From positions 4,566,001 through 4,630,000 of the forward strand of contig NZ_CP095074.1 of the NCBI RefSeq assembly GCF_022919835.1: a stretch of DNA of 64,000 nucleotides, read 5' to 3'. The notes under the pieces are model-generated. The model was not told where the DNA came from and did no database searches. It saw nothing but the letters and a program-made list of their open reading frames with translations. Position 1 is the stretch's first letter. Every line of letters starts with the position of its first letter. Shown one piece after another: positions 1 through 4,495 of this stretch. Origin of the DNA: Halobacillus shinanisalinarum. GTDB taxonomy: Bacteria; Bacillota; Bacilli; Bacillales; Halobacillaceae. Both the position numbers and the translations under genes were made by a program.

Positions 1-735
1 ACGTAAGGAAGTGACCGGGTAGATCACCATACCGAAACCAAATGACTCGAATTCTTCGGCAGTAAAATAGGGTGTTTTTCCGAATTCGGTCATGTTGGCT
101 AATAAAGGTGCATCAATCGCTTGCGAAGCCCTGTGAAAGTCTTCCTCACTCGTCAGCGCTTCTGGGAAAATGGCGTCGGCTCCTGCCTTGACATATAAAT
201 TAGCACGTTCAATGGCCTTGTCGATGCCTTCCACTGACTTCGCATCTGTTCTTGCGACGATAACTAGGGTAGGGGACACTTCTTTAATCGTCTTGATTTT
301 TTGTACCATCTCATCAGGGTCGATGAGTTTTTTACCGTTTAAATGCCCGCATTTTTTAGGGAGATGCTGATCCTCAATCTGAACGGCAGCTACTCCTGCT
401 TCTACCATCTCTCTCGCGGTTCGTGCCACATTTAATACACCACCGTAACCCGTATCAATATCGACTAAAAGAGGAAGGTCAGTAGCACGCACCAGTTCGG
501 TTGCTTTGTCTGCTACCTCATTGGAGTAAATCATCCCTAAGTCGGGCAGAGCTCGACTGGCTGTGTAAGCAGCACCTGAAAGATATAATGTCTGAAAACC
601 GACGTCTTTTGCAATTTTAGCGGACATTCCGTCATGGGCACCGGGGATTCTTAGTATTTCATTTTTCTTAATAAGGCGTTTGAATTGTTCAGCGCGCTCG
701 TTCTGTGTTGATTTTGGTTCCACGATCCAAGTCAT
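1..735 (-). CDS. prpB: 2-methylisocitrate lyase PrpB, 3' end cut by the window edge
   Basis: Cleaves 2-methylisocitrate to pyruvate and succinate, the last step of the cytoplasmic methylcitrate cycle for propionyl-CoA. The 245 visible residues start at an ATG complementary to 733-735 and run open to the window edge; the family is about 300 residues, so some 50 are missing. The isocitrate lyase/PEP mutase signature KKCGH is at residues 127-131 with catalytic Cys129, and the Mg-binding stretch VDIDTGYGG lies at 91-99. It sits 30 bp downstream of prpD on the same strand, completing a prpC-prpD-prpB operon like mmgDEF of B. subtilis. A carboxyphosphonoenolpyruvate mutase paralogue is the only alternative, and the neighbours argue against it. 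Confidence 0.93.
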   Translation of the reverse strand, partial: MTWIVEPKSTQNERAEQFKRLIKKNEILRIPGAHDGMSAKIAKDVGFQTLYLSGAAYTASRALPDLGMIYSNEVADKATELVRATDLPLLVDIDTGYGGVLNVARTAREMVEAGVAAVQIEDQHLPKKCGHLNGKKLIDPDEMVQKIKTIKEVSPTLVIVARTDAKSVEGIDKAIERANLYVKAGADAIFPEALTSEEDFHRASQAIDAPLLANMTEFGKTPYFTAEEFESFGFGMVIYPVTSLR

Positions 736-765: not shown

Positions 766-2208
766 TTAAATTCTAAACAGATTCATAAATTCATGAACAG
801 GTTTGAGTGAAAGTTCCTTTTGATTCTCACACAGCGTATAAATATCGTTGACTTGACGGGCAGGGAAATGCGTCTTCAAGTTGTCGTGGAACTTGTTCAA
901 TAGAAGCGGAATTCCTTCTTCACGACGGCGACGGTGTCCGATTGGGTATTCAATCGCCACTTGCTCCGTTTTTGTTCCATCATTGAAGAAAACTTGTACG
1001 GCATTAGCGATTGACCGTCTGCCAGCATCAAGATAGTCCTTGCTGTATTGTTCGTTTTCTACTGTTTCCATCATATCTCTTAATCGATCAATTTGAGGGT
1101 TGCGGGCGATTTCATCTTCATAATGGTCCGCTGTCAACGAACCATAAATTAAGCCTATCGCTGTAATATACTGCAAGCAATGGTCGCGGTCTGCCGGATT
1201 ATGAAGAGGGCCTTTTTTATCAATGATTCGTATGGCCGATTCATGGGTCGTTATTTCTATTTTTTCAATCTCATCCAATCGATCAGCCACCTGATCACGC
1301 AATTGAATCGCTGCCTCGGCTGCCGTTTGTGCATGGAACTCGGCTGGATAAGAAATCTTAAATAAGATGTTTTCCATAACGTAAGAGTCAAATGGGCGGG
1401 CAATCGTCAATTCCTTCCCATCAAACAGTACATCCTGGAAGCCCCAGCCTGGTGCAGATAACGGGGTTTTGTATCCCATTTCCCCCTTCATCGTCATGAG
1501 GGCTAGGCGAACTCCGCGGCTTGTCGCATCTCCAGCAGCCCAAGATTTTCTTGAACCTGTGTTTGGTGCGTGGCGATACGTTCGAAGGCTGGAATTATCA
1601 ATCCACGCTTGGGAAACCGCGTTGACAACGTCTTCTTTGCTTCCCCCTAACATCGCCGTAACAACAGCGGTTGTCGCTACTTTTACATACAGAACATGAT
1701 CTAAGCCCTGGCGGTTCAAACTGTTTTCCAAAGCAAGAATGCCTTGTATTTCGTGCGCTTTTACGATGTACTCCAAAACAGTGTCCATCGTAAGAGGCAC
1801 CTTGGCTTCGGCGATACGCTCACGGCTTAGGTAGTCGGCCACAGCTAAAATACCTCCGAGGTTATCAGAAGGGTGACCCCATTCGGCTGCAAGCCACGTA
1901 TCATTGTAATCCAGCCAGCGAATCATACATCCAATATTGAACGCCGCATGGACGGGATCTAGTTTATACTGTGTCCCAGGAACTTGAACGCCGTTTGGAA
2001 CGATCGTTCCGGGTACAATAGGGCCAAGGTGTTTGGTGCATTCTGGGTAACGAAGCGCCAGTAAGCCACACCCCAAGGTATCCATTAATACATAACGTGC
2101 TGTTTCCAGCGCTTCCTTACTCGAAATCGTTCCATTGACCGCATAATCGGCAATTTGTTCTACTACTTGATCTGTTGATTGAACTGTGTTCATTTTCACT
2201 TCTGTCAT
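766..2208 (-). CDS. prpD: 2-methylcitrate dehydratase PrpD (MmgE family)
   Basis: Dehydrates 2-methylcitrate to 2-methyl-cis-aconitate, the second step of the methylcitrate cycle; cofactor-free and cytoplasmic. The 480-residue product has the full length and character of the MmgE/PrpD family, including an N-terminal helical domain with LDTLGCG near residue 40. The frame is open 90 bp further upstream, but I chose the ATG at 2206-2208 because a strong ribosome binding site (GAGGTGG) precedes it and nothing comparable precedes the longer start. It lies between prpC and prpB in one operon; the gap from prpC is about 100 bp. Confident assignment. Confidence 0.94.
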
Positions 2209-2309
2209 AACATGTTCCACCTCTTTTTTAAGAATATGTAAAGACTCCTCGGTCGGTCTTAGCCGACCGGAGAGAAAGAAAAACTCATGTAAGCTCACTA
2301 TCGCTTTTT

Positions 2310-3425
2310 TTAAGGATGAAGCCCACGTGGTCCTGTGTAATGTACGCGAGGCCTGAACAATTTATTATTGGAATGTTGTTCAAAGATGTGAGCACATAAA
2401 CCTAACGTACGCGATGCGTAGAAAATGGGCGTATACAGTTCGATTGGAATACCAAGCAAATAATAAACAGGGGCTGCGTAATAATCAAGATTTGGATATA
2501 ATCCTTTTTCTTCACGTATGAGGGTTTCTCCTGCTTCACACATCTCGAATAAATCCATGCGACCTTTTTCCTCGGCAAGCTCACGTAAAGCCTCTTTCAT
2601 TAATGCAGCCCTTGGATCCATTTTCTTCATGTAAACTCGGTGCCCGAAACCCATGACTTTTTCTTTGTTTTTCAGCTTCTTATAGAGCAGGTAACGGAAA
2701 CCTTCGATCGTTTCTCCTTCCAGTAGCATATACATGACAGCCTCATTGGCACCCCCATGTAAGTTTCCTTTCAGCGATGCCACGGCTCCAGTTAGAGCCC
2801 CGTAAATATCAGCATTTGTGGAGGCGATGACTCGTGCAGCAAAGGTGGAGTTCGGCATTTCATGTTCACTGTAGACCATCAATGACTGATCAAAAATAGC
2901 TGCTTCACGTGCAGTCGGTTTTTTTCCAGTAATCATATATAAAAAGTTATCACTATAAGGTAAGTCTTGCTTAGGCTTCACTGGCTTTTGACCATGGAGA
3001 ATATGGTAACTGTTTGCAACGATATTTGGGATTTTTGCTAAAAGAAGCATCGCTTTCTTTAAATTTTCTTCTTCATTACGCTCGTTTAACCTCTCATCAT
3101 ATCCTGAAAGCGCTGAAATTCCCGTACGTAATGCATCCATGGGGTGCGTTTTTTTCGGAAGTTGCTCAAACAGCCTAAAGAATTTGGGAGGGAGACTATA
3201 TTCTTGCTTTAATTCTTTCTGAAGCGATGCTCGGTCGCTATCTTTAGGTAATGAACCTTGTAACAAAAGATGGACCAAATCCAAGTATTGCTTTTTCTCC
3301 GCCAGCTCGATTAATTCATACCCTCTGATCACAATTTCTTCTGCTTCTACATCCAAATAAGAAATACCTGTTTCTGCAGCAATAACTCCGTCTAAACCAG
3401 GTTTATACACAGTTTGTTCTGCCAT
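2310..3425 (-). CDS. prpC: 2-methylcitrate synthase / citrate synthase PrpC
   Basis: Condenses propionyl-CoA with oxaloacetate to 2-methylcitrate (usually with some acetyl-CoA activity), opening the methylcitrate cycle. The 371-residue size fits type II Gram-positive citrate synthases. The active-site His region LHGGANEA and the second His in GFGHRVYMK are both present, and the C-terminal [10 protein letters not shown] matches the family. The ATG at 3423-3425 is preceded by TAGGAGGG; an upstream in-frame ATG lacks a site. Placement with prpD and prpB makes methylcitrate synthase (MmgD-like) far likelier than the TCA enzyme. A cre-like catabolite repression site lies about 30 bp upstream, and a B12 riboswitch transcript could enter from further upstream. 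Confidence 0.93.
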
Positions 3426-3455
3426 CAATGACCCTCCTAATAATGTCAACATTAA

Positions 3456-3470
3456 GGAAACCGCTTACAA
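3456..3470 (-). promoter_or_regulatory. Probable CcpA cre site upstream of prpC
   Basis: Read on the minus strand the site is TTGTAAGCGGTTTCC, matching the degenerate cre consensus WTGNAANCGNWNNCW at all but the last position. It lies 31 bp before the prpC start codon. The homologous mmg operon of B. subtilis is known to be under carbon catabolite control, which supports the reading. I could not assign a convincing promoter next to it. Confidence 0.5.
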
Positions 3471-3505
3471 AATACAGGGAACTTTTCCCTTTCTATGAGT
3501 CGTTC

Positions 3506-3727
3506 TTATTTTTGCAGGGCTCCAAAAATCTCTGCATATATTTTTTCATAGGCCTTTTCGAGATTTTGTAAGTGTACTTCTTTTTTCTCATATTTATATT
3601 CTCGTTTCATAACGTCAGCTCTTAATTGTGAATATTTAGTACGCAATGAACAGCTGTGATCTGCAATGAAATTGTTCATAATACCAGCTTTAAATAATTG
3701 GCAATAATACTCGACTGAACCAAACAA
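3506..3727 (-). CDS. Small protein of unknown function behind the B12 riboswitch
   Basis: Unrecognised 73-residue protein. It starts at a TTG (3725-3727) placed 6-7 nt after a perfect GAGGAGG; an internal ATG at residue 17 is the alternative start. The product has two Cys (CQLF near residue 10, HSCSL near residue 25) and a charged, probably helical C-terminal half rich in Lys, Glu and Tyr. No signal peptide or membrane segment is visible. It is the first reading frame after the cobalamin riboswitch and terminator and lies about 80 bp before prpC on the same strand. It could be a real B12-regulated protein, a leader, or a gene remnant; the good ribosome binding site favours translation. Confidence 0.5.
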   Translation of the reverse strand: MFGSVEYYCQLFKAGIMNNFIADHSCSLRTKYSQLRADVMKREYKYEKKEVHLQNLEKAYEKIYAEIFGALQK

Positions 3728-3770
3728 AGGGTACCTCCTCAAGCATGTTTATCACTAGAATTTTTAACCA

Positions 3771-3799
3771 TAAAAAAACAACTTCCAAAAGAAGTTGTT
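3771..3799 (-). terminator. Intrinsic terminator of the cobalamin riboswitch
   Basis: Minus-strand hairpin with a perfect 8-bp stem (ACAACTTC / GAAGTTGT), a five-base loop, and a run of seven T. It lies between the aptamer and the first downstream start codon, as expected for a riboswitch that terminates transcription when adenosylcobalamin is bound. Confidence 0.85.
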
Positions 3800-3894
3800 A
3801 AGCTGCGTATCCATCAAATAATACATGGTAATGAAAACAAACCATGTAGCATTCCTGCTATTCTCGCCCTTAACACCTCCTATCCGCGTAGGTT

Positions 3895-4090
3895 TTAGTG
3901 TTCGCTAAAAACAGGCAGGTCTCCTGGCTTATGATCATCGCTCCTCGAACCTTCCCATTTCCATGTTCCATGAAAACAGTGGTTTATTCGAATTGCTCCT
4001 AAATACAGTTGCGGGACAGCGTCGGGTTCTAACCGAACTTCCCTTTTAAGCAGATAAATGAATACATTTACCTGCACCTATTTCTACACC
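3895..4090 (-). promoter_or_regulatory. Cobalamin (B12) riboswitch
   Basis: On the minus strand the leader opens with TAGGTGCAGG and carries the conserved core in order: GGGAAG..., the region around CCCGCAACTG, GGGAAGG, and the nearly invariant B12 box AAGCCAGGAGACCTGCC at about 3910-3926. The whole element is close to 195 nt, normal for the class. It is followed by an intrinsic terminator, so binding of B12 should stop transcription into the small gene and possibly the methylcitrate operon behind it. Such switches usually govern B12 synthesis or uptake, or B12-independent isozymes. Confidence 0.93.
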
Positions 4091-4108
4091 TATACAATTG
4101 TCTTCTTA

Positions 4109-4137
4109 AATATATCAAGTATTTGGAAAATTAACAA
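4109..4137 (-). promoter_or_regulatory. SigA-type promoter for the B12 riboswitch transcript
   Basis: Minus-strand -35 TTGTTA (4132-4137) and -10 TATATT (4109-4114) with an exact 17-bp spacer. The expected start is about 10-15 nt before the first conserved riboswitch base, which fits well. Confidence 0.65.
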
Positions 4138-4339: not shown

Positions 4340-4362
4340 GTAATCAAATTGAATAGAAATAA

Positions 4363-4459
4363 CTAGGGGAGTCCAATAGTTTGGACTGAGAGAGAAGCGC
4401 GTTGAAGCTTCTTGACTCTTGGGACCTGATCTGGATCATACCAGCGTGGGGAAGTTAAC
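4363..4459 (+). promoter_or_regulatory. TPP riboswitch (THI element)
   Basis: Carries the conserved THI-box segments in order: AGGGGAGTCC, CTGAGAGAG, then CTCTTGGGACCTGATCTGG and ATCATACCAGCGTGGGGAAG. It is followed by a terminator hairpin and then thiC. Thiamine pyrophosphate binding is expected to end transcription before thiC, giving feedback control of pyrimidine-moiety synthesis. Confidence 0.95.
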
Positions 4460-4495
4460 CAATCATCAATGCAATCCTACTTCTGCATACATATT

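Follow-up and report, generated by a model that had tools for sequence, protein, structure and literature searches.

The genes prpC, prpD and prpB lie adjacent on one strand of the window, the 64,000-nt stretch of Halobacillus shinanisalinarum DNA analysed here, and constitute a methylcitrate cycle operon (Table 1). PrpD and PrpB score 863.9 bits (cut-off 575) and 418.8 bits (cut-off 354.4) with their NCBIfam models. The top-scoring NCBIfam model for PrpC is PRK12349 "citrate synthase" (657.3, cut-off 508), and TIGR01800 (2-methylcitrate synthase/citrate synthase II) is narrowly missed (403.6, slightly below the cut-off of 421.3), so the name of this protein leans on the operon context. With PrpC named partly via the operon, the products of the three genes form a route that needs no B12, as an alternative to a B12-dependent step (Pfam, NCBIfam).

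Upstream of the operon and on the same strand, the Rfam model RF00174 covers positions 4096–3897 over its entire length (model positions 1–189 of 189; 112.9 bits, gathering score 31.5, E 1.6e-27), followed by an intrinsic terminator at 3799–3772; the complete B12 riboswitch with a terminator claimed in the preliminary description is thus present. This score, together with the occurrence of the element at 36 loci, rules out a chance match or mis-annotation. The expression platform is comprised of the terminator, an antiterminator and a hairpin competing with the latter, and is presumably coupled to ligand binding. The hairpin sits at what we take to be the P13 position of a cobalamin riboswitch, the L5–L13 kissing contact presumably being a feature of the class. 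The distance to prpC is approximately 370 bp, as described earlier, if counted from the first stem base of the terminator to the prpC ATG (3425), and the gap immediately before prpC, said to lack a strong terminator, holds a weak 6-bp hairpin (3490–3476) and a cre-like box (Table 1). A scan for promoter-like sites yielded six, including the one upstream of the aptamer, compared to 9.1 expected by chance, and therefore on its own is no evidence for that site; the hexamers of the latter, read by eye, are repeated in five leaders of the genus. A TPP riboswitch at 4355–4469 (plus strand), upstream of an ORF read by eye as thiC, is divergent from the cobalamin riboswitch.

Table 1. Features of the prp locus and targets of the other cobalamin riboswitches in the genome; positions refer to the window unless a locus (L) or genome (G) handle is given
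Feature	Position	Strand	Evidence
prpB, methylisocitrate lyase	1..735, continues beyond window end; whole in L008:13816-14736	-	Pfam, NCBIfam
prpD, 2-methylcitrate dehydratase	766..2298	-	Pfam, NCBIfam
prpC, 2-methylcitrate synthase / citrate synthase family	2310..3425	-	Pfam, NCBIfam
cre-like box TGTAAGCGGTTTCC, between small gene and prpC	3456..3469	-	match to consensus
small gene, 73 aa, three-helix YvfG-like protein	3506..3727	-	TTG start, GAGGAGG before start; family profile, fold
intrinsic terminator	3772..3799	-	same type in 36/36 leaders
antiterminator 3' arm (CGCAGCUUAAC), overlaps terminator stem	3797..3807	-	folding, arm pairing
antiterminator 5' arm (GUGUUAAGGGCG)	3865..3876	-	folding, arm pairing
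hairpin adjoining aptamer, holds GGUGUU, competes with antiterminator	3872..3902	-	-5.9 kcal/mol alone
cobalamin riboswitch aptamer	3897..4096	-	RF00174, 112.9 bits
B12 box AGCCAGGAGACCTGCC, within aptamer	3914..3929	-	sequence
promoter-like site TTGTTA-17-TATATT, upstream of aptamer	4109..4137	-	9/12 matches
riboswitch and acyl-CoA dehydrogenase operon, running towards prp operon	L008:7351-13741 = G000:C1:4559350-4565740, just outside window		Rfam
riboswitch targets metE; nrdE; btuF and cobinamide-salvage-like genes			NCBIfam, several names by eye
riboswitch target, transporter component, ECF type by eye			no NCBIfam match
riboswitch target, thioesterase-like gene	L011:8242-8715; riboswitch G000:C1:1103849-1104034	-	YciA model, under cut-off

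The preliminary description had proposed a search for riboswitch–prp synteny in relatives. Our sample, which is close to the query and is no census, consists of 88 prpC loci of Bacilli, with doubly named loci counted once (L018/L066, L144/L064, L145/L065, L147/L069 and L150/L073); its GTDB part is the best 80 of 528 relatives in the prpC scan. At 36 of the 88 loci the switch is found upstream of prpC on the same strand (Rfam and pattern scan), 22 of them confirmed by Rfam and 14 identified by the pattern scan alone. The version of the scan that was checked recovered 34 of 34 Rfam hits, and the version used allowed for slightly more mismatches; it also flagged one imperfect opposite-strand site in L075, with no Rfam confirmation. 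Within the genus, five of 11 genomes have a prpC ortholog, all five with the aptamer upstream, and in the family the switch is present in 12 of the 13 genomes with prpC (out of 44). Among the best 80 prpC loci out of 528 relatives, the nearest named prpC is that of Halobacillus yeomjeoni (88%), and the switch occurs at 28, spanning 15 genus names plus one Bacillaceae. When the 52 loci of the 80-locus set that lack the switch were all searched with Rfam, a sole cobalamin match emerged, the degraded leader of L124 (32.1 bits); the same scan showed L084 to have no switch approximately 1.5 kb upstream of prpC, contrary to what its coordinates had led us to suspect. A pattern derived from the leader matched seven sites in six of 398 Bacilli genomes, with no control matches: two sites are those of this genome (before prpC and before an acyl-CoA dehydrogenase gene), and the remaining five are all upstream of prpC. 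Locus L123 also carries tandem SAM and cobalamin riboswitches before a metE-like gene (3398–3792, minus strand), divergent from the prp switch, and L098, from a record titled Roseburia sp., falls within Virgibacillus in the prpC tree, which points to a possible error in the title or in the binning.

The small gene that had been claimed between the switch and prpC is conserved (3727–3506): it is present at 26 of the 36 switch-bearing loci, which rules out a spurious frame, and adjoins prpC at only one of the 52 switch-less loci at E 0.1 or better (L064, H. yeomjeoni, with a switch remnant). One stray match away from prpC was observed (L104, 9739–9849, E 0.03). A search with the single sequence retrieved the protein itself and one relative; a family profile was then built from the loci, and the search with it yielded 17 proteins, while no usable Pfam match was found for the 24 members searched. 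The predicted structure is a three-helix bundle (mean pLDDT 84.8), close in fold to Bacillus subtilis YvfG (TM-score 0.74–0.75, rmsd 1.6, probability 1.00), but with the Foldseek E-value of 0.25 and 20% identity; YvfG is also the top PDB sequence-profile match (20.5 bits, E 0.0032). The two proteins appear to have the three-helix fold in common, and the gene described here is situated between a riboswitch and prpC. Given this position and the L140 locus, where the small ORF is in frame with prpC, one might guess that the small protein is a partner of PrpC.

With a gene intervening, the switch could govern that gene only, prpC being driven by its own downstream promoter under catabolite control via the cre-like box. 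We regard this as quite improbable. A cre-like box with at most two mismatches precedes prpC at 34 of the 36 loci, and in Bacillus thuringiensis prpD is reported to be transcribed from an internal promoter that has a putative CcpA site (PMC12891235). However, at 10 of the 36 loci the stretch from the terminator to prpC contains no ORF of at least 40 aa, and thus no small gene, and at several of these it is only 67–78 bp long; elsewhere the small ORF extends over the start of prpC (nine loci) or abuts it (one), which argues for read-through, and in L140 it is in frame with prpC. The box at 3469–3456, cre-like by its consensus, is weaker evidence than its frequency suggests and only partly usable as an independent sign of catabolite control, since some genera have it within the coding sequence of the small gene (as read directly in L140). 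Moreover, the association with methylmalonyl-CoA mutase (MCM) described below concerns the prpC loci as a whole. Co-transcription of the small gene with prpC-prpD-prpB from the leader, with no second promoter, is the probable arrangement.

A terminator is present in all 36 leaders, and the antiterminator arms are matched to each other: arms paired with their own partners yield –11.2 kcal/mol on average, compared to –9.2 ± 0.33 for exchanged arms, and none of 2000 shuffles, which ignore kinship, is as low. The result holds in 29 non-redundant leaders. The antiterminator of L083 is weak (–3.0), and in L119 (Anoxybacillus) the terminator sequence and the antiterminator are unlike the others, yet its own arms still pair (–17.9). 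On folding of the leader of this genome, the full-length RNA adopts the hairpin plus terminator (–33.7), and the RNA cut before the second half of the terminator, the antiterminator (–30.0). Since the terminator of the full-length RNA forms with no ligand present, the model requires folding to be co-transcriptional. In the absence of B12, the leader would form, while it is being transcribed, a long antiterminator (GUGUUAAG... with ...CUUAAC), which would block the terminator and allow the methylcitrate cycle enzymes to be made. When B12 is bound, the aptamer would stabilise the adjoining GGUGUU hairpin, removing one antiterminator arm; the terminator would then form and shut the operon, and propionyl-CoA would be left to the B12-dependent route (carboxylase, epimerase and methylmalonyl-CoA mutase). 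We infer an OFF switch, since GGUGUU is common to the hairpin and the antiterminator, and a ligand favouring the hairpin would free the terminator.

The opposite direction of the response, with B12 turning prp on, or a different corrinoid as the main ligand, is very unlikely. Cobalamin riboswitches do differ in their preference for methyl- or adenosylcobalamin, as stated in the title of a cited paper. Against this, GUGUU shared by the hairpin adjoining the aptamer and the antiterminator is the layout of an OFF attenuator, and RNAs of the same family precede metE and nrdE in this genome, both of which are B12-repressed in other bacteria; the switch remnants in MCM-lacking genomes, described below, are sensible only if B12 shuts prp. 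Hence, given the aptamer, terminator, competing hairpins, matched arms and synteny, we consider it very likely that the small gene and prpC-prpD-prpB are under a cobalamin riboswitch that acts by terminating transcription and whose ligand is probably adenosylcobalamin.

This reading agrees with the distribution of MCM, which provides its best test and is defined here by a score of more than 500 bits to the large subunit of this genome (IcmF-size proteins, the isobutyryl-CoA mutases, score below 300 bits). The preliminary description had suggested looking for MCM genes elsewhere in the genome, and indeed the MCM large subunit, a fusion of the MCM B12 domain with methylmalonyl-CoA epimerase, and one carboxylase subunit are encoded side by side, the first two above the cut-off and the third at 821.2 bits (cut-off 998.8). 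MCM is present in all 36 switch-bearing genomes and in 8 of the 50 switch-less genomes searched, L091 and L137 being outside the MCM counts (Fisher p 8.5e-17, a value inflated by kinship, as the quick prpC tree provides only six independent pairs on well supported branches). Out of these six pairs, four to five agree with the association and none oppose it (p 0.0625); the same tree requires 10 changes for the switch and 12 for MCM. The prpC row of L106 was kept in the tree despite a stop codon in the translated stretch. Throughout the family, MCM was found in 43 of 44 genomes, and the exception (G033) is also the sole genome of the family in which prpC occurs with no switch. Genomes without MCM are not devoid of cobalamin riboswitches in general, as 30 of the 42 have at least one at another site (stricter filters), so that it is specifically at prp that the switch is absent. 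The link runs one way: of the 44 genomes with MCM that were compared, 8 have a switch-less prpC. Thus, among the relatives compared, the switch is found only where the B12-dependent route also exists, and it probably turns the B12-independent backup off when B12 is at hand.

To look for remnants of the switch, a profile of the 36 leaders was run on the 52 loci without it and on L144, which duplicates L064; reversed sequences, used as a control, produced no match below E 1. In L124 the entire leader is still recognisable before prpC, though degraded (111 bits), L064/L144 retain the expression platform without the aptamer (25.1 bits, E 8.5e-7), and L115, a part of the expression platform (16.1 bits, E 4e-4). 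All three lack MCM, and decay following the loss of MCM, in that presumed order, is the natural reading. A fourth remnant, comprising only the first 99 leader positions, precedes prpC in L103 (4772–4874, plus strand; 26.9 bits, E 2e-7); this genome has MCM (but no IcmF-size mutase above the cut-off applied), and so it does not fit the simple picture of decay once MCM is lost.

The genome (one contig, 4.89 Mb) contains seven cobalamin riboswitches (Table 1). The thioesterase-like gene is paired with a cobalamin riboswitch also at the genus loci L038, L039, L043 and L050, and could serve to discard acyl-CoA when B12 is short. Another of the seven precedes an operon encoding an acyl-CoA dehydrogenase, a 3-hydroxyisobutyrate-dehydrogenase-like protein, methylmalonate-semialdehyde dehydrogenase, enoyl-CoA hydratase and 3-hydroxyisobutyryl-CoA hydrolase. 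The leader of this operon shares its terminator and antiterminator with that of prp, whereas the remaining five leaders differ; this points to duplication of the switch at the time the genes came apart. In 43 genomes (the 36 with the switch and seven genomes of the family without a switch at prp), a close dehydrogenase ortholog (more than 700 bits) was found in 19, all of them among the 36 switch-bearing ones, and in all 19 it is downstream of a same-strand switch, confirmed by Rfam in 7 of the 7 loci on which it was run. It directly follows its own switch in four cases (L008, L186, L194 and L195) and comes after the prp genes in 15, where reading the whole as one transcript is limited by 1.6–2 kb of unnamed DNA between prpB and the dehydrogenase in L199, L200 and L201, and by prpD and prpB not being found at the locus in L187 and L188. 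In H. shinanisalinarum the methylmalonate-semialdehyde dehydrogenase frame (L008:10352-11488) ends early, at 378 aa covering positions 2–370 of the 477-position model, and the IcmF gene (L153:6497-9657) is split over two overlapping frames; either may be a real loss or a sequencing error.

As valine catabolism, this dehydrogenase set would be odd when B12 is short, since it makes propionyl-CoA, unless IcmF is the B12-dependent alternative. By the same RNA mechanism, the partner pathway could then be valine breakdown via IcmF: with B12, isobutyryl-CoA would be converted to butyryl-CoA, and without it, the dehydrogenase set would lead to propionyl-CoA and on to the methylcitrate cycle. We consider this unlikely. 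The valine-branch enzymes of the co-controlled set speak for it, as does an IcmF-size mutase in all 28 switch-bearing genomes of the 80-locus set. Against it, none of the nine prpC genomes with an IcmF-size mutase but without MCM has an intact switch, which disfavours IcmF in place of MCM as the partner; moreover, 17 of the 36 switch-bearing genomes are without a dehydrogenase ortholog at more than 700 bits, and the IcmF frame of this genome is broken in two.

As a propionate shunt, the dehydrogenase set would remove propionyl-CoA. In nematodes, a propionate shunt is repressed by B12. A beta-oxidation-like route is reported to be used in mice when cobalamin falls (PMC9418907). MmsA and MmsB increased on propionate in Pseudomonas aeruginosa, yet with normal growth of the mmsA mutant on it (PMC9765439). 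We tentatively suggest, as a reading that is more doubtful than probable, that one type of switch controls an entire B12-free module for the disposal of propionyl-CoA. This would comprise the methylcitrate cycle and a beta-oxidation-like shunt now read as valine catabolism, with an acyl-CoA dehydrogenase, an enoyl-CoA hydratase, a 3-hydroxyacyl-CoA hydrolase and dehydrogenases for the hydroxyacid and the semialdehyde; an additional switch would govern an acyl-CoA thioesterase, and the YvfG-like protein would act on PrpC.

Cobalamin riboswitches of metE and class I ribonucleotide reductase belong to the same RNA family and similarly shut off a B12-independent alternative, but they control isozymes, whereas the prp switch would control a whole alternative pathway with different chemistry. 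Isozymes of B12-dependent enzymes are named as one target class in PMC3766115, the main text of which (additional files set aside) contains none of the words "prp", "methylcitrate" and "propion". Three such switches are described in Bacillus methanolicus, before genes of cobalamin transport/synthesis, metE and nrdAB (PMC4342826). In Mycobacterium tuberculosis, according to PMC10924821, B12 lowers the prpD and prpC transcripts, the PrpD and PrpC proteins vanish with B12, metE is repressed by B12, and prpDC is controlled by the protein regulator PrpR; the riboswitches named in PMC4428469 are those on metE and PPE2. Here, in contrast, the switch lies in the prp leader itself. A prpC/prpD/prpB methylcitrate operon similar to that described here exists in the related B. 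thuringiensis, in which its authors found no methylmalonyl-CoA mutase gene and added B12 was of no help to a prpD mutant; the word riboswitch is absent from that paper (PMC12891235). The preliminary description knew of no established riboswitch on prp genes, and we likewise found no report of one in searches of the open-access full text of PubMed Central; an earlier prediction may exist in supplements, subscription papers or RegPrecise. The RNA class and the regulatory logic are known, and the target pathway looks new.

These observations would extend control by B12 riboswitches from single isozymes to the choice between two whole pathways for toxic propionyl-CoA, with the prp switch spread over no fewer than 15 genera of Bacilli. 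The close tie to MCM, together with the remnants where MCM is missing, makes it a readable case of RNA regulation tracking gene content, and predicts which species would shut this propionate detoxification when given B12. As new members of the B12 regulon we propose the YvfG-like gene, the acyl-CoA dehydrogenase gene set and the acyl-CoA thioesterase; should the reading of one B12-free propionyl-CoA module hold, bacteria would have in it an RNA-based equivalent of the propionate shunt that B12 represses in nematodes.
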